Source: Bacteroidota bacterium
GTDB taxonomy: Bacteria > Bacteroidota > Bacteroidia > JAADEI01
DNA length: 44,435 bases
Direction: 5' to 3'
NCBI GenBank assembly: GCA_026992635.1
Contig: JALWYU010000080.1
Location: 1-44,435, forward strand
In this document: piece by piece, positions 9,325 to 18,192 of the stretch
Layout: the number at the start of each line of letters is the position of its first letter
Position numbering within the stretch: the first letter of the stretch is position 1
The notes under the pieces: generated by a model
Database searches by the model: none
What the model was told of the DNA's origin: nothing
The model's input: only the letters and a program-made list of their open reading frames with translations
Made by a program: the position numbers and the translations under genes

Positions 9325-10524
9325 TCAATCCACCACACGCTCTATCCGAACCACCTCTCCCCTGTGCAGTAAAATCAACTGGCGAATCGGATCTTTATCC
9401 GGCGAAAGATACTCAAACACAAACTGCGGAATTGCCAAAGACATCTTCAGATCCTGCATACTTACCCTGGTCAGATTCTCCTCTATATACTCCTTCTCCA
9501 ACCACGATTCAAACGCGAGAAGAAGTCGCTTCACGTCTGGATCCTCCGCAAACTGGTACAAATACATCCCGGAATGATTATGAAACTCTCCTACAAACAA
9601 CATACCCTGCTTCAGCTTCTTCCGAAGCAGAATCAGTGCTTCCTGCCTGAAACTAAAGGTTTGAAAACCAATCATCTTCAGAAAAAACGATTTCCGCTTG
9701 GCATCCAGCCGATCAAAATTCGCAAGCGTCTGGTGAATATGCTCAGGAATAAAAGGCTCACACATGTACTTCACATATGCAACAACCTTCTTGAGCACAG
9801 AATCATCTACATCCCTGAACGCCTCGCGCGACCTCAAATGCGACGCGATGTCGTAGTGGTAGTAATACTTGTTTAAATTCCTGACTATGGGGGCGACAAA
9901 CTCCTCCAGAGCCACACGAAACTTCTCTTCCTTCTCAGTCTTCCATTTCGTAAAAATCGTCCAGAACAGGTCTATCTGATAATTCCTGACGGTATCAATG
10001 ACCAGAATATCCCTTTCAGGATCATAAAACACCAGACCCAGCTCCTCTGGCAACATCGCCGCCAGCGAATCATGAAACCCACGATGCGCCAAATAATGCG
10101 CTTGATACAACTCAAAAAAACGAGAATAAAACTTCTCCAGATCATAGTCAGCGAGCCGACGAAGCGCTTCCAGAAACGCTTCAAAAGCATAGACATAGTA
10201 AGTAGTATCCTGCTCTATCAGCCGACGAACCCGACCAATGATCGCAAGTGCACCTTCATACCGGCCCACAACAATAGAATCTTCTATCGCAGAAATCGCA
10301 TCGGCAATCCTGTTTGCCCGATTTACATAAATCGTTGACCGGCGCTCTTCCAGATAAGTTAATGGCACCTCCCGTATAATCAAATGCTTAACACGCGACC
10401 GACTGTATAAACTCAACAAATACTGGTCAAAATCAAAGCCCTTCTCAACAGCCTGACCCATTAACCCACAATAACCCAGAACAACACCCAGCAACACAGC
10501 GCCAAAACGCAACACCCCTGTCAT
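9325..10524 (-). CDS. Exported helical protein of unknown function
   Basis: I prefer the ATG at 10524 over the upstream GTG at 10563 because it gives an immediate signal peptide (MTGVLRFGAVLLGVVLG, cleavage near MGQA). The mature part, about 375 residues, is charged and mostly alpha-helical, with many aromatic residues and stretches such as DYDLEKFYSRFFELYQAHYLAHRG cut into helices. It has one DPERDILVIDT strand and a C-terminal region containing MLFVGEFHNHSGMYL. No catalytic motif is certain and no family is recognised. It starts 40 nt after the stop of the CAP-domain gene on the same strand, so the two are probably one operon of secreted proteins. Confidence 0.65.
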   Translation of the reverse strand: MTGVLRFGAVLLGVVLGYCGLMGQAVEKGFDFDQYLLSLYSRSRVKHLIIREVPLTYLEERRSTIYVNRANRIADAISAIEDSIVVGRYEGALAIIGRVRRLIEQDTTYYVYAFEAFLEALRRLADYDLEKFYSRFFELYQAHYLAHRGFHDSLAAMLPEELGLVFYDPERDILVIDTVRNYQIDLFWTIFTKWKTEKEEKFRVALEEFVAPIVRNLNKYYYHYDIASHLRSREAFRDVDDSVLKKVVAYVKYMCEPFIPEHIHQTLANFDRLDAKRKSFFLKMIGFQTFSFRQEALILLRKKLKQGMLFVGEFHNHSGMYLYQFAEDPDVKRLLLAFESWLEKEYIEENLTRVSMQDLKMSLAIPQFVFEYLSPDKDPIRQLILLHRGEVVRIERVVD

Positions 10525-10564
10525 CCCCGAACAATTTCCCACTGACAGCCCGTAACACCACACA

Positions 10565-11497
10565 CTACCGCTTCCCCAGCTTGATCACCACCCAGACATC
10601 CACAGACGTATCCCGCCGGTGAAAATCCTCGGGCAACGCCTTCGGCAAAGCACACACACCAACCCGGTTAAAACCCGGCGTAAGCAACGTCTCACGATGT
10701 CCATACCCCGGTATGCCCTCATCCAGCAACAACGACGCCACCGCCTCCCGTGCCAGCAAAAGCAACACCTCCTCACGTGAATATCCAGGAGGTACCGGCA
10801 TATCCAGCTCAGAACCGTATACCGCCTCCCCGACATCCCTCTCCTCTCTGCAAAACCGCTTTACACGGTCCCACGGCCAGCCCCCCTCCACATCTATGTG
10901 ATCAACATCCCCTTTTTCTTCCAGCGACGTCCGCATATGCCACTCACAAGCCTTATCCATACATCGCTCCGGATACAAAACTGACGCACCCGACAAATCC
11001 TCCAGATCCTCAAGAAGCGTGCCAATTGCCCGTCCCATCTCCTGCGCCTTCGCCGCAGAATCCCACTCAATCGTATCTACCCTGACCAAATTGCCCTCCT
11101 GATCGTAAACCCTGGTAATCGTCGGAGACCAGTGAACATTCCCAGACAACAACTCTCTTCGCTTACATTCCAGCCACGACACCAAAAACCGCGCATACGC
11201 CCGCGGATACCGCCTCACTAAATTCAACTCACGCACAATCAACTTCTCCAGCTCCGTCATATACGGCACATCCTGACCGGTATTCGCCGCACGCAACCAC
11301 GCCTCCGGAAAACTATCCTTCAACAAAAGAAGATCGCATTTCTGCATTTTCATCCACAACCGATATGCTACTTCCATCTCCAGACTCAGTGTATCGCCCC
11401 ATCTATCCCATTCCTCAACCCCATCCTGCGCAAACCCCTTACCAACCATCAACCAGAAAACCAGCACGCCCACACCTGCACACCTGACCACTTCCAT
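10565..11497 (-). CDS. Exported CAP/SCP-domain protein
   Basis: The frame extends to 11653, but the ATG at 11497 gives a proper signal peptide (MEVVRCAGVGVLVFWLMVG, cleavage after FAQ before DG), so I start it there (310 residues). The mature protein carries the CAP (SCP/PR-1) fold: the first helix ELEKLIVRELNLVRRYPRAY; then MDKACEWHMRTSLEEKGDVD followed by the H-I segment; GEAVYGSE; and the signature block GYGHRETLLTPGFNRVGVC near the C-terminus. Bacterial CAP proteins are extracellular and their biochemical role is mostly undefined; lipid binding and protease-like roles have been proposed. The conserved His/Glu of the cavity appear to be represented by DVDHI, GEAVYG and GYGHRE. It is probably co-transcribed with 9325-10524. 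Confidence 0.8.
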   Translation of the reverse strand: MEVVRCAGVGVLVFWLMVGKGFAQDGVEEWDRWGDTLSLEMEVAYRLWMKMQKCDLLLLKDSFPEAWLRAANTGQDVPYMTELEKLIVRELNLVRRYPRAYARFLVSWLECKRRELLSGNVHWSPTITRVYDQEGNLVRVDTIEWDSAAKAQEMGRAIGTLLEDLEDLSGASVLYPERCMDKACEWHMRTSLEEKGDVDHIDVEGGWPWDRVKRFCREERDVGEAVYGSELDMPVPPGYSREEVLLLLAREAVASLLLDEGIPGYGHRETLLTPGFNRVGVCALPKALPEDFHRRDTSVDVWVVIKLGKR

Positions 11498-11660
11498 CCC
11501 CGACAATCTTACCGCCTGTACCCCCTGTCCACCATAGGAAACGATTGCATGCCCGATTTCCTTTCCAGGAAAAATTAATCCTTTAATCCGGACTCCATCA
11601 ACCAGCTCATACCCGAACACGAACACCCCGCAATTCCGTCTAGATGAATTCATGCACTGG

Positions 11661-12474
11661 TGAGAAAATTACGCTTTGAGAAGGGTCAGAAGGCGCTCTG
11701 ATAAGAGACCGTTGACACGCCCAAAAGCAACAAGGAACACTTCCCAAAGGGTCAAATGGCACCCCCTAATGGGTCAATCGGCACCCACCAGTGGGTCAAT
11801 CGGCACCCCCTAATGGGTCAAATGGCACCCCCTAATGGGTCAATCGACACCCATCAATGGGTCAAATGGCACCCCCTAATGGGTCAATCGGCACCCACCA
11901 GTGGGTCAATCGGCGCCCCCTAATGGGTCAATCGGCACCCACCAGTGGGTCAATCGGCACCCCCTAATGGGTCAATCGGCACCCACCAGTGGGTCAAATG
12001 GCACCCCCTAATGGGTCAATCGGCACCCCCTAATGGGTCAATCGGCACCCACCAATGGGTCAATCGGCACCCCCTAATGGGTCAAACGACACCCCCTAAT
12101 GGGTCAATCGGCACCCACCAGTGGGTCAAACGGCACCCCCTAATGGGTCAATCGGCACCCCCTAATGGGTCAATCGGCACCCACCAATGGGTCAATCGGC
12201 ACCCCCTAATGGGTCAAACGACACCCCCTAATGGGTCAATCGGCACCCACCAGTGGGTCAATCGGCACCCACCAGTGGGTCAATCGGCACCCACCAATGG
12301 GTCAATCGGCACCCACCAGTGGGTCAAATGGCACCCAACAATGGGTCAATCGGCACCCCCTAATGGGTCAATCGGCACCCATCAATGGATCAAATGGCTC
12401 TCCAAAAAGAGTCAAACGGCGCTCTGAAAAGGAACAGGGGGCACCCTGAAAAGAACCAAAATGGCACTTTGAAA
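11661..12474 (+). repeat. 22-bp tandem repeat array, about 37 units in constant phase
   Basis: From 11749 to 12386 there are 29 units of exactly 22 nt, with no indel. Each starts GGGTCAATCGGCAC (or GGGTCAAATGGCAC, or GGGTCAAACGGCAC) and ends in one of two tails: CCCCTAAT (type A) or CCACCAGT / CCACCAAT / CCATCAAT (type B). Diverged units continue in the same phase on both sides: 11661, 11683, 11705 and 11727 to the left, and 12387, 12409, 12431 and 12453 to the right (for example GAGTCAAACGGCGCTCTGAA). In the middle the order becomes A-A-B with a 66-nt period. The blocks at 11991-12122 and 12123-12254 (132 nt each) differ by one base. There are no unique spacers, so this is not CRISPR. A 160-codon frame crosses it (11945-12427), but I do not call it a gene. 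Confidence 0.95.
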
Positions 12475-12524
12475 GAGAAAAGACATCCTTTGGAAACAAA
12501 AAACCAAACCCATCAAGCCTGCCC

Positions 12525-12850
12525 ACATCCATTATCCTCGCCCTCGCCTTCCTCACAACAACCATCCTGTATACCCAGCAAAAAACTGACCCACGCACGC
12601 GACCCCAAATACTATCCACACACTGGTGCAAGCCGGTGCCCAACTCAACGCCCAAAACCACACCTTCAACTTCACACCACTCCACTACGCCGTCCTGTAC
12701 AAACACAAACAAATTGCCGCATATCTGGTTGCAAAAGGCGCCAGACCAGACCTCCAGAATCTCCAGACCGCAGGGCACCCATTACCGCTTGGCGCTATGC
12801 CTGGGAACTTTCCTCCTGCATCGTCCTGTTGCCATACTAAAAACACCCAG
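12525..12850 (+). pseudogene. Broken ankyrin-repeat protein gene
   Basis: Pieces of an exported ankyrin protein are spread over more than one frame. One frame gives a signal-peptide-like run (TSIILALAFLTTTILYTQQK) around 12529-12588. Another gives NTIHTLVQAGAQLNAQN, then FNFTPLHYAVLYKHKQIAAY and LVAKGARPDLQN, a clear ankyrin repeat with the TPLHYA turn. A third gives GTHYRLALCLGTFLLHRPVA, resembling the next repeat. Frame changes are needed to join them, so it is a remnant. It directly follows the 22-bp array. The end is uncertain. Confidence 0.65.
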
Positions 12851-12982
12851 CACAACACTTCAATTCTGCGTGCAATGGCTATGAGAGCCTTTGTAAATAT
12901 ACCAGAAAGCCTGCTCCTTGCAATGACCTGCACAGATCACTCGTATGGCATACTTGAATAGCACACCCAAATTGAACAATGC

Positions 12983-14095
12983 ATGAATACTCCGTTTCAC
13001 ACACTCGCCAAGGAAGGGTTACCTCTACTGGATCATCAGTGGTACAACAAACTGATATATGGCGACAACCTCGCCGTGATGCAACACCTGATTCACGACC
13101 TTGACTTAGCGGGAAAAGTAACGCTAATCTATATTGACCCCCCTTTTGCCACGGGCGAAGCCTTCCGCGTAAGTACGCATCGGACAGCAACCATCAGTAT
13201 GCCTGCCACCAGTGAAATTGCTTACCAGGACTTCAAATTTGGTACCGACTACATCAACTTTCTCAAAGACCGGCTCATCTTATTGCGCGAATTACTCTCC
13301 GACGAAGGAACCATCTACGTGCATATTGGAGTGAGAATATCCCACTACGTGCGCCTATTGATGGATGAGATCTTCGGGTTTGACAACTTTATCAGTGAAA
13401 TCACCCGAATCAAATGCAACCCCAAAAATTTCAAACGTCGCAGTTTTGGAAACATCAAAGACACAATTCTGGTCTATTCCAAAACCAAAAACTACGTCTG
13501 GAACGAACCCCGCATCCCCTATACAAAAGAAGAAATAGAGCGACTCTTTCCCAAAGTGGACGCACAGGGCAGACGATACACCACAACCCCCTTACACGCA
13601 CCCGGTGAAACTTCCAAAGGCAGCACAGGTCAGCCATGGCGAGGACTGAAACCACCCGAAGGACGACACTGGCGATACCCACCCCACATACTGGATGAAC
13701 TGGACAGACAGGGATTAATTGAATGGTCATCCACCGGTAATCCACGCAAAAAATTATACGCCGACGAAGTAATATCCAGAGGTAAATTGGCGCAAGACGT
13801 CTGGGAATTCAAAGACCCCCCTCGCCCCAAATATCCCACCGAGAAGAACCTGGAAATGCTGAAACTGATCGTCGCCACCTCTTCCCGACCCGGAGATATC
13901 GTCCTCGACGCCTTCTGCGGATCAGGAACTACTTTGCTTGCCGCAGAACTGCTCGGTAGAAAATGGATTGGCATAGACAATTCATCACGTGCCATCCATA
14001 TCGCACTTGAACGACTGCGTTCTCTATCTCATAAAAAGCGACCTCCCGCACCTTACGAAGTCCTCGCTTTGCAGAATAATTGCCTTACACCATGA
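12983..14095 (+). CDS. Site-specific DNA methyltransferase (beta-class, N6-adenine or N4-cytosine)
   Basis: The 370-residue enzyme transfers a methyl group from S-adenosylmethionine to a base in a specific DNA sequence. Motif IV comes first (LIYIDPPFATGEAF, D52-P-P-F55) and the AdoMet-binding motif I comes late (DAFCGSGTTLLAAELLGRKW, D309 to T316 within it), the order typical of beta-class enzymes. The region between (about 130-280) should contain the target recognition domain. The start ATG at 12983 gives NKLIYGDNLAVM at the correct place in the N-terminus. The stop overlaps the next start as ATGA, and that gene encodes a nuclease, so this is most likely the protective methylase of a type II restriction-modification system. 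The recognition sequence cannot be read from the sequence. Confidence 0.9.
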   Translation: MNTPFHTLAKEGLPLLDHQWYNKLIYGDNLAVMQHLIHDLDLAGKVTLIYIDPPFATGEAFRVSTHRTATISMPATSEIAYQDFKFGTDYINFLKDRLILLRELLSDEGTIYVHIGVRISHYVRLLMDEIFGFDNFISEITRIKCNPKNFKRRSFGNIKDTILVYSKTKNYVWNEPRIPYTKEEIERLFPKVDAQGRRYTTTPLHAPGETSKGSTGQPWRGLKPPEGRHWRYPPHILDELDRQGLIEWSSTGNPRKKLYADEVISRGKLAQDVWEFKDPPRPKYPTEKNLEMLKLIVATSSRPGDIVLDAFCGSGTTLLAAELLGRKWIGIDNSSRAIHIALERLRSLSHKKRPPAPYEVLALQNNCLTP

Positions 14096-14910
14096 CCAAT
14101 CCCTGGGTACTTAAAAGCATCAAACTTGCCAGCTCAAAGGGCTACCTGGACCAGCTCCACGAGGTCTACCCCGTACCAACCCCCTCACCCAGACAGATTT
14201 CCCGCGAACAATACCTCACCCTGCAAAAACTATTTGAGTCTTCAGAGGATGTGGAACTTATCCAATACCTGCTGAAAAACTTTGAGAAATTCCCAATCAA
14301 TGACCCATATGTAGCCTGCCTCCGACGATCGGAAGACCTGATACACAAAAACCCCAGAACAGTACAGCGAATCGCCACACAACTCAGAAAACTGGGCTTT
14401 CAAAAAGTAATAGAAGCCCTCCAGCAACCCAAAGAAACCAACAGACGCATGGGCACACTCTTCGCACGATGGTTACGTGAAAAATTTCCCTTACCAGTTG
14501 TCGCATTATCCGAAAAGCCAAAACCTGACCTCTGCGTCATTCAAGGCACATCAAATGAACTGCTTACTTTCCTGAACACAGCCCTGGGTTGCAGACTCAG
14601 TAAAACACCCGACGTAATCATTAAAGTCCACAGGAAATTCATCGTCGGGGAAGCCAAATTCATTGCCGATTACGGTGGACATCAATATACCCAGCTGCAG
14701 GATGCCCTGTCACTTTTCTCCAAGGTAGATAGGCGACGGGTAATTCCCATTGCTGTACTGGACGGCGTCGTCTGGCTCAAGACCAATAGCAAAATGTATC
14801 GCATGATTACTGCTTTATCAAACGACACAGCACTCAGTGCCCTCCTCCTTGACGACTTCGTGAACACGCTCGCCAACAGCGCTACACACACTGCCCCACA
14901 CCAGAAATGA
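14092..14910 (+). CDS. Putative type II restriction endonuclease (PD-(D/E)xK)
   Basis: The ATG at 14092 overlaps the methyltransferase stop (ATGA), so I prefer it over a TTG twelve nt upstream. The 272-residue protein has a helical N-terminal half and a core with P-D174-VIIKV, then I-V-G-E187-A-K189-F, the spacing of a PD-(D/E)xK nuclease site. DYGGHQYTQLQDAL follows, with the Gln commonly found after the catalytic Lys strand. In this setting it should cut DNA that lacks the partner's methylation. I cannot assign it to a named restriction family or give a recognition sequence. The tight coupling of methylase before nuclease is a common arrangement for type II systems. It appears intact. Confidence 0.75.
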   Translation: MTNPWVLKSIKLASSKGYLDQLHEVYPVPTPSPRQISREQYLTLQKLFESSEDVELIQYLLKNFEKFPINDPYVACLRRSEDLIHKNPRTVQRIATQLRKLGFQKVIEALQQPKETNRRMGTLFARWLREKFPLPVVALSEKPKPDLCVIQGTSNELLTFLNTALGCRLSKTPDVIIKVHRKFIVGEAKFIADYGGHQYTQLQDALSLFSKVDRRRVIPIAVLDGVVWLKTNSKMYRMITALSNDTALSALLLDDFVNTLANSATHTAPHQK

Positions 14911-15228: not shown

Positions 15229-18192
15229 ATGCGCAAAGCCAGACAAACACACCACCCGGTACGCACATACCTCTGGACAGCACTCCTGGCGATCTGCCTG
15301 ACCACCACCGCCCACGCACAGCAACCCCTCACCATCACCGAGCCTGTCGCCGTCCTCAAAGGACACACAGAGGATGTGTGGTCTGTAGCCTTCAGTCCCG
15401 ATGGCAGGTGGCTGGCTTCGGCAAGCGATGACAACACTGTGCGTGTGTGGGAGGTGGGCACCTGGAACACCATCGCCGTCCTCAAAGGACACACAAATTT
15501 GGTATGGTCTGTCGCCTTCAGTCCCGATGGCAGGTGGCTGGCTTCGGCAAGCGATGACAACACTGTGCGTGTGTGGGAGGTGGGCACCTGGAACACCATC
15601 GCCGTCCTCAAAGGACACACAGACAATGTGTGGTCTGTAGCCTTCAGTCCCGATGGCAGGTGGCTGGCTTCGGGAGGACGTGATTGTATTTTGATAATTT
15701 GGCAATCAGGGTCATGGCAGAAAGTAACAGCCCTTGAACATCCAGGTTGTGGGGCAGCTCCTCAAATGGTTTTTAGTCCAGATGGGAGATACCTCGTTGC
15801 TGACGCTAAGTATAACGGTGAATTTGTGATTATAGTGTGGAAAACAGAAAGCTGGGATAAAGTAGCAATGTTACACGGACATAGCAATTATGTAAATAGC
15901 GTTGCCTTCAGTCCCGATGGCAGGTGGCTGGCTTCGGCAAGCGATGACAACACTGTGCGTGTGTGGGATATGAAAGGTATAGAGGAACAGGTAGAGGCGT
16001 ACAGGAAAAAATACTATCGCTGGAAAAACACCATTGGCAAAGCTGATGCGGTATGGAGCACTGTTTGTGATACTCTTCCCCCGGAAGTGGTCATGAGAGA
16101 TACAACTTCTCTTTACCTTGTGCTCAACTTCCTGCTGGACAGTGTAAGAGCTAGGTATCAGGCGCAGTGGGCTCTGGTCAACCCGCAAAAAGGCGAATTT
16201 GAAAAAACCGCCGACTATCAGGAGCGCATGCGCAGGGCAAAGCCCTATGTATGTGGCGTGTGGAATGACTACTTGAAGCGAGCGAAAGAAGTGGTTGCCA
16301 CCCATTTCCTCCTCCCCTCCTGCCAGCCTGAGCCCGCCAAACTCACCAGCGTGGGCACCTACGACGCCGACCGCGAACAACTACCCCTCACCATTGACGG
16401 CAAACAATTCCAGGCAAACATCCCCATCAAAGAAGCACCCTCCTTCAAAGCGCACTGGCAACAGGCACAGGTGTGGCGCATCCGTGCCCTCACCTGGGAA
16501 AAGAAAACCGCCACAATCGGCTACATCGTCCAGCACCCCCAGACAGGCTCGCTCTACCCCGTACACGCCTACTTCAGCAAAGCCTACGGGACACACCCCT
16601 GCCTCCACACACAAAACCTGAAAAAAGTAGTTGAGCGTGCCCAAACCACCACAGCCCGCAAAACCCCTCAACGACAAACCCATCACTACCCACCCTTCCT
16701 CCGAATTGATTCTTTCTACATCCAGGAAGAAATCAGCAACGGACGAATTGAAGCCTATGAGCCCGCACACGTCCTCATCCACCTGCACAACTCCGGACGA
16801 GGACCCGCTCAGAACATCCAACTGTGGCTCGCCCCCGAAGACCCCACCACCAGCACATGCCTCACTACCGACACAGTCTCGGCAGGCACGCTCCAGCCCA
16901 ACACCCGCAAATGGGTCGCCATACCCGTGCGCGTCCCTCCCGAATATGCTGGCGAACCCTGCCAGACGACCTTCCGCATACAGGCAACCACCCGGCGAGG
17001 CTTCCACCTATCACGCACACCCGCCTTCGTCCTCCGGGGAATACCCTACCAGCAACCCCACCTCCAGCTCTCACTGATGAAAATCACCGAGCATGGCAAC
17101 CCCAACGACATTTTAGAACCCGGCGAAGAACTCACCTTCCACCTCCGACTCACCAACACCGGACAAACCACCGCACGCCAGCTCACACTCACCCTCCAGG
17201 CTCCCCAATCGCTGGTTACCGAACCGCTCTCCCCTTCCCAAATCGCCATCCTCCCACCCGGAACCGACACCTCACTCTCCTTCTCCATAATATGGCAACC
17301 CGAGCAAACCGCCAATCCTGGAATCCAGATCACCGACATCGCCCAATCCAGATTCTTCCTCCGCATAGACATCCAGAAACTCACGCCCTTTGAAATTGTC
17401 AACCTCCACCGCGCAGTTATGCAATTCACGCCCGCCACCACCTGCCACAACTGCTACGCACTCATCATCGCCAACCAGGAATACAACGCACCTGGCGCAA
17501 TGCTCCTCTTCGCCATGAAAGAAGGCACCTTAGTCAGAAACTACTTCCAGCGTATCCTGGGCATCCCCTACGAAAACATCTACTACTACGAAAACCTCAC
17601 ACACGCCCAGTTCCTCCGCATCCTCCAGGACTTCCAGAAACGCGTCCAGAACCCCTCACGCATCTACTTCTACTATGTAGGGCATGGCTTGCCCACTATT
17701 GACAACCAGCCCGGATTCGTTCCCATAGACGTAGACCCCTATAGCCCCTCTAAGGAAGTACTTCCTTTAGCATGGGTCGCCGAACAACTCCAGAAAACCG
17801 GTGCCAACCACCTGATCATGTTCGTAGACGCCTGCTATACAGGTGCACCACGCCAGGGTGCCTCGCCCGTCGCCGGTCCCCCCGTACGTCGTGCTGGCAA
17901 CTACCTGCCTCCCAACACAATCCTGTTCAGTGCCGTCAGCAAACAGGAACGAGCATGGTTCCCACCCGACCTCGGACACGGCATCTTCACCTACGCATTC
18001 CTCAACGCCCTCTACCACTTCCGACAAACCGGCACACTCACCGCACGCACCCTCTCCGACCTCTATAACCACATCCAGGCAACCATGAAAAAACTCACAC
18101 GCTTCTACCTGCCCACCAGCACCACACAAACCCCCACCATCGTCAGTACACACCCCCAGTGGAACAACCTGCCTATCGTGCCGGAAGAGTGA
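15229..18192 (+). CDS. Exported WD40-repeat protein with C-terminal caspase (peptidase C14) domain
   Basis: The 987-residue protein starts with a signal peptide (LWTALLAICLTTTAHA, cleavage before QQP), so it acts outside the cytoplasm. Five WD40 units follow (about 40-253); the core VWSVAFSPDGRWLASASDDN is repeated almost unchanged, and the fourth unit is degenerate. Residues about 254-500 are a mixed region with no family I recognise. Two Ig-like CARDB/APHP-type domains follow (about 510-615 and 628-730, with LHNSGRGPAQNIQLWL and LRLTNTGQTTARQLTLTL). The C-terminal domain (about 745-960) is caspase-like: YALIIANQEYN, catalytic His819 in YYVGHG and Cys869 in FVDACYTG, 50 residues apart. It should therefore be an active cysteine protease of the metacaspase group; Arg/Lys-type specificity is family knowledge only. 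A six-helix membrane protein gene begins 56 nt downstream. Confidence 0.88.
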   Translation: MRKARQTHHPVRTYLWTALLAICLTTTAHAQQPLTITEPVAVLKGHTEDVWSVAFSPDGRWLASASDDNTVRVWEVGTWNTIAVLKGHTNLVWSVAFSPDGRWLASASDDNTVRVWEVGTWNTIAVLKGHTDNVWSVAFSPDGRWLASGGRDCILIIWQSGSWQKVTALEHPGCGAAPQMVFSPDGRYLVADAKYNGEFVIIVWKTESWDKVAMLHGHSNYVNSVAFSPDGRWLASASDDNTVRVWDMKGIEEQVEAYRKKYYRWKNTIGKADAVWSTVCDTLPPEVVMRDTTSLYLVLNFLLDSVRARYQAQWALVNPQKGEFEKTADYQERMRRAKPYVCGVWNDYLKRAKEVVATHFLLPSCQPEPAKLTSVGTYDADREQLPLTIDGKQFQANIPIKEAPSFKAHWQQAQVWRIRALTWEKKTATIGYIVQHPQTGSLYPVHAYFSKAYGTHPCLHTQNLKKVVERAQTTTARKTPQRQTHHYPPFLRIDSFYIQEEISNGRIEAYEPAHVLIHLHNSGRGPAQNIQLWLAPEDPTTSTCLTTDTVSAGTLQPNTRKWVAIPVRVPPEYAGEPCQTTFRIQATTRRGFHLSRTPAFVLRGIPYQQPHLQLSLMKITEHGNPNDILEPGEELTFHLRLTNTGQTTARQLTLTLQAPQSLVTEPLSPSQIAILPPGTDTSLSFSIIWQPEQTANPGIQITDIAQSRFFLRIDIQKLTPFEIVNLHRAVMQFTPATTCHNCYALIIANQEYNAPGAMLLFAMKEGTLVRNYFQRILGIPYENIYYYENLTHAQFLRILQDFQKRVQNPSRIYFYYVGHGLPTIDNQPGFVPIDVDPYSPSKEVLPLAWVAEQLQKTGANHLIMFVDACYTGAPRQGASPVAGPPVRRAGNYLPPNTILFSAVSKQERAWFPPDLGHGIFTYAFLNALYHFRQTGTLTARTLSDLYNHIQATMKKLTRFYLPTSTTQTPTIVSTHPQWNNLPIVPEE
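15352..15674 (+). repeat. 126-nt near-identical direct repeats encoding WD40 units
   Basis: The units start at 15352, 15478 and 15604 (exactly 126 nt, 42 codons). They are nearly identical at DNA level, differing mainly in the few codons after the GGACACACA block. About 65 nt of the same sequence (CCTTCAGTCCCGATGGCAGG onward) reappears at 15905-15969 in the fifth WD40 unit, across a diverged fourth unit. Identity at silent positions points to recent duplication or gene conversion. Confidence 0.9.

Follow-up and report, generated by a model that had tools for sequence, protein, structure and literature searches.

A 22-nt unit is repeated head to tail in one intergenic region of a Bacteroidota contig without losing phase, and the locus raises the question of what keeps the units in step: a protein bound along the DNA, a structure in a transcript, or the copying by which tandem arrays grow. 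The contig (C80, 44,435 nt, called the window here) belongs to a draft genome (G000) whose 114 contigs total 2,130,337 bases and which is 82.55% complete. In our reading the array probably belongs to a small family of intergenic minisatellites, non-coding and lineage-restricted, whose unit measures 21-22 nt. The family is most likely old, and its confinement to the lineage most likely holds as far as tested. A literature search found no account of these arrays among the papers listed.

The core of the window array (11749..12386; no array feature has an assigned strand) consists of 29 consecutive units, each exactly 22 nt and without indels, with ten distinct sequences, the consensus GGGTCAATCGGCACCCCCTAAT and a mean pairwise identity of 0.88. 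This is as an earlier note on this DNA had counted them, and TRF on the window likewise reports period 22, 28.7 copies and 0% indels (11749-12380). The note was also right that no unique sequence intervenes, as there are no spacers between units of the ten near-identical types. A pattern spanning two units matches the window 22 times and shuffled sequence 0.00 times, which excludes chance for this array, and no ORF of at least 80 aa runs through the whole of it on either strand. Three decayed units on the left (11683..11748, units -3 to -1) and three on the right (12387..12452, units 29 to 31) keep the register in a scan against the core profile; further right are weak traces with shifts of +1, -2 and -1 (12453..12518). 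The note had extended the phase over about 37 units, from 11661 to 12453. No register is seen for unit -4, at 11661, and unit 32, at 12453, is displaced by +1, so the phase is held over 35 units (11683-12452).

The centre of the array is uniform and its edges are decayed. The longest exact repeat within it is a 130-nt block in two copies (12000-12129 and 12132-12261, together 12000..12261) at a shift of 132 nt, or six units; an exact repeat as long turns up in 0.2% of 2000 shufflings of the unit order (p 0.002). This duplication indicates that the array was enlarged by copying multi-unit blocks, and with the uniform centre and decayed edges it bears out the long history of expansion that had been proposed from the units.

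On the left the array is bordered by the gene for a 362-aa protein (10565..11653, minus strand), named a CAP protein in the earlier note; the protein has no Pfam match at E≤1 and no NCBIfam match at E≤0.1. On the right lies an ORF with an ankyrin-repeat fragment (12626..12961, plus strand; PF00023, E 4.7e-7), in agreement with the dead ankyrin gene that the note had placed there. Genes for an N6/N4 DNA methyltransferase (12983..14095, plus strand; PF01555) and a Tsp45I-type restriction endonuclease (14080..14910, plus strand; PF06300) follow. A tie between the array and this restriction system was considered and found no support: the Tsp45I-type gene is also present in G002, a genome of the same family and another genus, with no tandem repeat within 1.5 kb, and the window array contains no GTSAC site. 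In the window as a whole GTSAC occurs 16 times against 101.7 in shuffles, and GTCAC and GTGAC stand at about 0.4 of expectation genome-wide. The genome also strongly avoids TCGA (229 seen, 5546 expected), GGCC (659 and 9429) and CTAG (251 and 2435).

Two other features of the window may be recorded: a DDE transposase gene (PF01609, 7905-9233) about 2.4 kb from the array, with relatives elsewhere in the genome, and a 987-aa WD40 gene with 126-bp repeats (15229-18192). Distinct from it is a large family of beta-propeller-type repeat genes, which occupies about 45 places in the genome, many with 156-bp repeats. A link between arrays and these genes at first seemed strong, being seen at 8 of 12 places and at 12.7% of random positions. 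L205, among those places, proved to hold no array, and the strong stretches gave 3 of 7 against 21.7% of intergenic points (p 0.18), so the link was dropped.

The earlier note had proposed a search for the unit elsewhere. The exact unit is confined to the window array (25 of 25 genome pattern matches lie there, and BLAST recovers the array alone), whereas similar arrays do occur in the same genome, which holds at least six intergenic ones, the window's included. TRF was applied to 155 stretches (2,127,921 bases, three stretches wholly N) and finds period 22 on contigs C99 (19.7 copies), C69 (22.5 copies), C40 (17.1 copies), C55 (15.3 copies), C14 (10 copies) and C54 (6.8 double units), the last three at contig ends. 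The unit and direction on C14 match those on C55; the two are possibly one array split by assembly and are counted as one. There are further short or weak period-22 runs on C109 and C25 and a 21-nt run on C48. A scan of periods 15-30, with N stretches removed, gives eight runs at period 22 and nine at period 21, several of the latter apparently coding, and from none to nine at the remaining periods (nine at period 18, five at period 15). Palindromic sites are strung into chains of at least eight only where they are 20-23 nt apart, in six stretches. Chains of at least six are absent at 16-19 nt, and number three at 24-27 nt and two at 28-31 nt, all of exactly six sites; shuffled sequence contains none.

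The window matrix finds no solitary units beyond control (27 against 26) and the pooled matrix of all arrays finds 44 against 34, while two single matrices exceed the control in matches outside arrays (26 to 11 for C69, 108 to 86 for C54); there may be a few solitary copies of the C69 and C54 unit types. At L260 2840-3110 and L262 16230-16660 there are 21-nt runs, much decayed, that follow the form TTCCC-N5-AGGGCA. A degenerate-unit matrix built from two weak 21-nt stretches suggests that the genome has further pairs of this kind at 20-22 nt: its first round counted 34, with 3 in reversed sequence, and among the places contributing to this count two are the matrix's own seeds.

Units of different arrays align in a common register, GGCACYYC..AGTG. 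Unit pairs were compared as the best over all rotations and strands (36 comparisons, with p given per single comparison). The window unit, in two variants, matches the C55 unit at 14-15 of 22 positions and the commoner (first) C40 variant at 15 of 22, in the GGCAC-first register (p 0.0007-0.009), and the second C40 variant at 13-14 of 22 (p 0.01-0.04); weaker pairs are those with C99 (p 0.05-0.48), C69 (p 0.04-0.14) and C54 (p 0.36-0.86). Twenty-three three-unit rows align over 66 columns without a gap, with C3, C5 and G14 invariant in each unit. Variation falls in the same columns from one array to another (p 0.0009-0.009, rotation test), and paired columns carry 23% of the heterozygosity against 45% under rotation (p 0.018). 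A neutral satellite would predict neither this avoidance of paired columns nor the variation at the same columns; shared ancestry of the variants could produce both.

The flanks of some arrays are related as well. DNA directly to the right of the arrays on C55 and C69 is homologous, with 85% identity across 274 nt, and 19 of the 22 positions are the same in their two consensus units; for C40 and C69 the flanking DNA is 70% identical over 322 nt and the units agree at 13-15 of 22. Unit identity thus tracks flank identity: units diverge about as fast as their flanks, with each array homogeneous inside. The arrays on C40, C55 and C69 would have spread by duplication of a segment containing them. 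No homologue of the flanks of the window array was found elsewhere in the genome, so that common descent with the other arrays is argued from the unit by itself, and the window array may derive from the same seed as the others or from a convergent one.

Unequal exchange or replication slippage would grow and homogenise such arrays in place by copying whole units, and phase would be a by-product. The block duplication, the decayed edges, the uniform centre and the joint divergence of units and flanks together form the pattern expected of either process. As whole-unit copying keeps phase, the even spacing can be explained without a bound protein; candidate functions such as folding, protein binding or gene buffering would not be needed for it, and in-phase repeats by themselves are poor evidence of protein binding. 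With its shared ancestry, kept unit length and register, and turnover at about the rate of the flanks, the family would make a clear bacterial case of satellite-like concerted evolution.

The shared flank contains a gene for a 186-aa protein, which has three copies in the genome, each adjoining an array; it is intact on C40 (50829-51386, minus strand; also L258 10826-11386) and interrupted or partial on C69 and C55. Array matches to covariance model R1 lie at about 50388-50782 on C40 (plus strand). A homologue with 67% identity is encoded in G002 (C225:7124-7582, plus strand), and about 130 nt past it, on the same side and the same relative strand as on C40, are six R1 matches (C225:7715-8080, minus strand; each E 0.001-0.013), known as model matches. 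Their starts are spaced 43, 43, 43, 65 and 107 nt, 43 nt being two units. Model matches beside the same gene in a sister genus indicate that at least that branch of arrays is old and inherited. Pfam, NCBIfam and PHROGs contain no match to the protein, and the PDB yields nothing better than E 0.16; its predicted structure is helical and of low confidence (mean pLDDT 61). A relative with 33.7% identity is encoded on a Candidatus Thiodictyon plasmid, with no array near it, and searches of phages and viral contigs gave none.

Persistence beside the same gene across genera could reflect selection. The arrays, or at least the branch beside the 186-aa gene, might then be a working gene-array unit in which selection keeps the geometry (unit length and GGCAC..GTG core) while the sequence changes, the array serving a lineage-specific factor as a platform of DNA or RNA. 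The adjacency at all three places in G000 and the matches in the one gene-bearing genome of a sister genus suggest this idea, which we regard as unlikely; should the pair prove functional, bacteria would have an array system of a new kind.

The pattern GGCACN6GTGCCN6GGCAC has 98 matches in G000 and none in the other 118 of 119 genomes or in reversed sequence, and a window-type pattern is found in one of 395 genomes of the class, the window's own. Among viral contigs the window-type pattern hits three stretches, none related, and the GGCAC pattern none; plasmid and phage collections return only 30-33-nt matches at E 0.8 or worse. With at most 150 candidates per genome scored, at least six of 30 genomes have an R1 match at E≤0.1: at least 78 in G000, the source of the model, at least 15 in G002, where contigs C225, C236 and C4 carry candidate arrays, and at least one each in G003, G004 and G021. 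The matches in G003 and G004 are weak, and both genomes lack the 186-aa gene, as does G001, which has no R1 match among the candidates scored. G005 has at least nine matches, at least partly at about 29-nt spacing (contig C73 24177-24345), perhaps another kind of tandem array.

A platform for protein is an unlikely alternative to the minisatellite reading. A dimeric DNA-binding protein would coat the array on GGCAC and GTGCC half-sites 11 bp apart, with a part in nucleoid structure or gene insulation, and the core common to all arrays, the coincidence of conserved columns, the position of variable columns mostly in the gaps between half-sites and a period near two helical turns in every array would all suit it. 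In the window array, however, GTGGG stands in place of GTGCC at the right half-site, and the palindrome is weak (4-bp stem, p 0.32, against p 0.009-0.033 for pairing in C55, C69 and C40). Clear solitary sites are lacking, and the orientation of arrays to genes is mixed. The earlier note took the phase to place a bound protein on one face of the DNA and irregular indels in related arrays to speak against its reading. The first of these finds no support, as copying alone keeps phase, and related arrays with indels were in part found: C69 mixes 21- and 22-nt units (21 nt in 7 of the 18 that were parsed), and in G002 the matches are 43 nt apart for every two units. With a helical repeat of 10.5 bp per turn, moreover, 22 bp make 2.1 turns, so that over three units the exposed face rotates by roughly one third of a turn.

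Strings of stem-loops that stabilise, terminate or process mRNA when transcribed are improbable too. Measured against column-permuted arrays, a control that preserves tandemness, folding is more stable for C40, C55, C69 and one strand of C99 (fraction as stable 0.000-0.035), but not for the window array (0.105-0.205). A selected hairpin in the window array finds no support: dinucleotide shuffling gave z -3.85 for the minus strand, with +0.37 for the plus strand, and the effect is gone under column permutation. Covariation within this array is weak, a 3-bp stem being paired in 88% of cells over 14 units including edges, which 11 of 500 shuffles reach; across arrays the GGCAC/GTGCC stem shows none (68.6% paired against a shuffled mean of 69.4). 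No Rfam family matches the window array at the gathering threshold, and the genes on either side of an array may be divergent, convergent or co-directional.

That the array is a relic of the repeated ends of a mobile element (IS21-like) or a mobile repeat of REP/SDR type is very improbable. IS21 ends carry GGGTCAA-type direct repeats. No IS21 transposase match was found in G000 (NF033546), and two IS21 transposase genes of another genome have no tandem 22-nt GGGTCA repeats in their 1.5-kb flanks, so IS21 ends were rejected as a source. PF01695 has four partial matches in G000, one of them over the cut-off, in a 502-aa frame that we take to be DnaA-like. An excerpt of PMC2884548 raises the possibility that short dispersed tandem repeats of about 20 bp are mobile. 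The Y1 transposase (RAYT) has no match in the 82.55% complete genome and the window matrix has no solitary units above control, which argues against a mobile repeat and led us to reject a REP/RAYT identity.

It is least probable of all that an assembler made the array or its length, although the draft is fragmented, the C14, C54 and C55 stretches lie at contig ends and an exact repeat of 130 nt is long for short reads. Ten unit sequences with graded decay at both edges are beyond an assembler's making, and there are independent arrays elsewhere and matches in another genome; the copy number of the window array may all the same be wrong.

As a minisatellite, the window array resembles bacterial VNTRs (MIRU-VNTR) in being non-coding and tandem head to tail, with a uniform centre and block duplications, and the family differs from them in that several arrays share unit register and length and one branch is gene-linked in two genera. 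Cyanobacterial small dispersed repeats have solitary copies, which are not clearly present here. REP/REPIN systems with RAYT are likewise built of short extragenic repeats; theirs are palindromic, as the units on C40, C55 and C69 may be and those of the window array doubtfully are, and tandem REP arrays exist (excerpt of PMC3116915); they differ in their Y1 transposase, in their singlets and in lacking the spacerless 22-nt spacing. The array is also comparable to plasmid iterons, which in R6K are 22-bp direct repeats. The contig here is chromosomal, judging by its genes for methionyl-tRNA synthetase and tRNA (guanine-1) methyltransferase, and no replication initiator gene is among the window ORFs scanned (20, plus direct neighbours). 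A CRISPR-like nature was rejected for the window array, as it has no variable spacers and its units are near-identical. A CRISPR-like array does lie on contig C109 (L275 about 9954-12188), with the repeat GTTTTCAGCCTACCTATGAGGAATTGAAAC.
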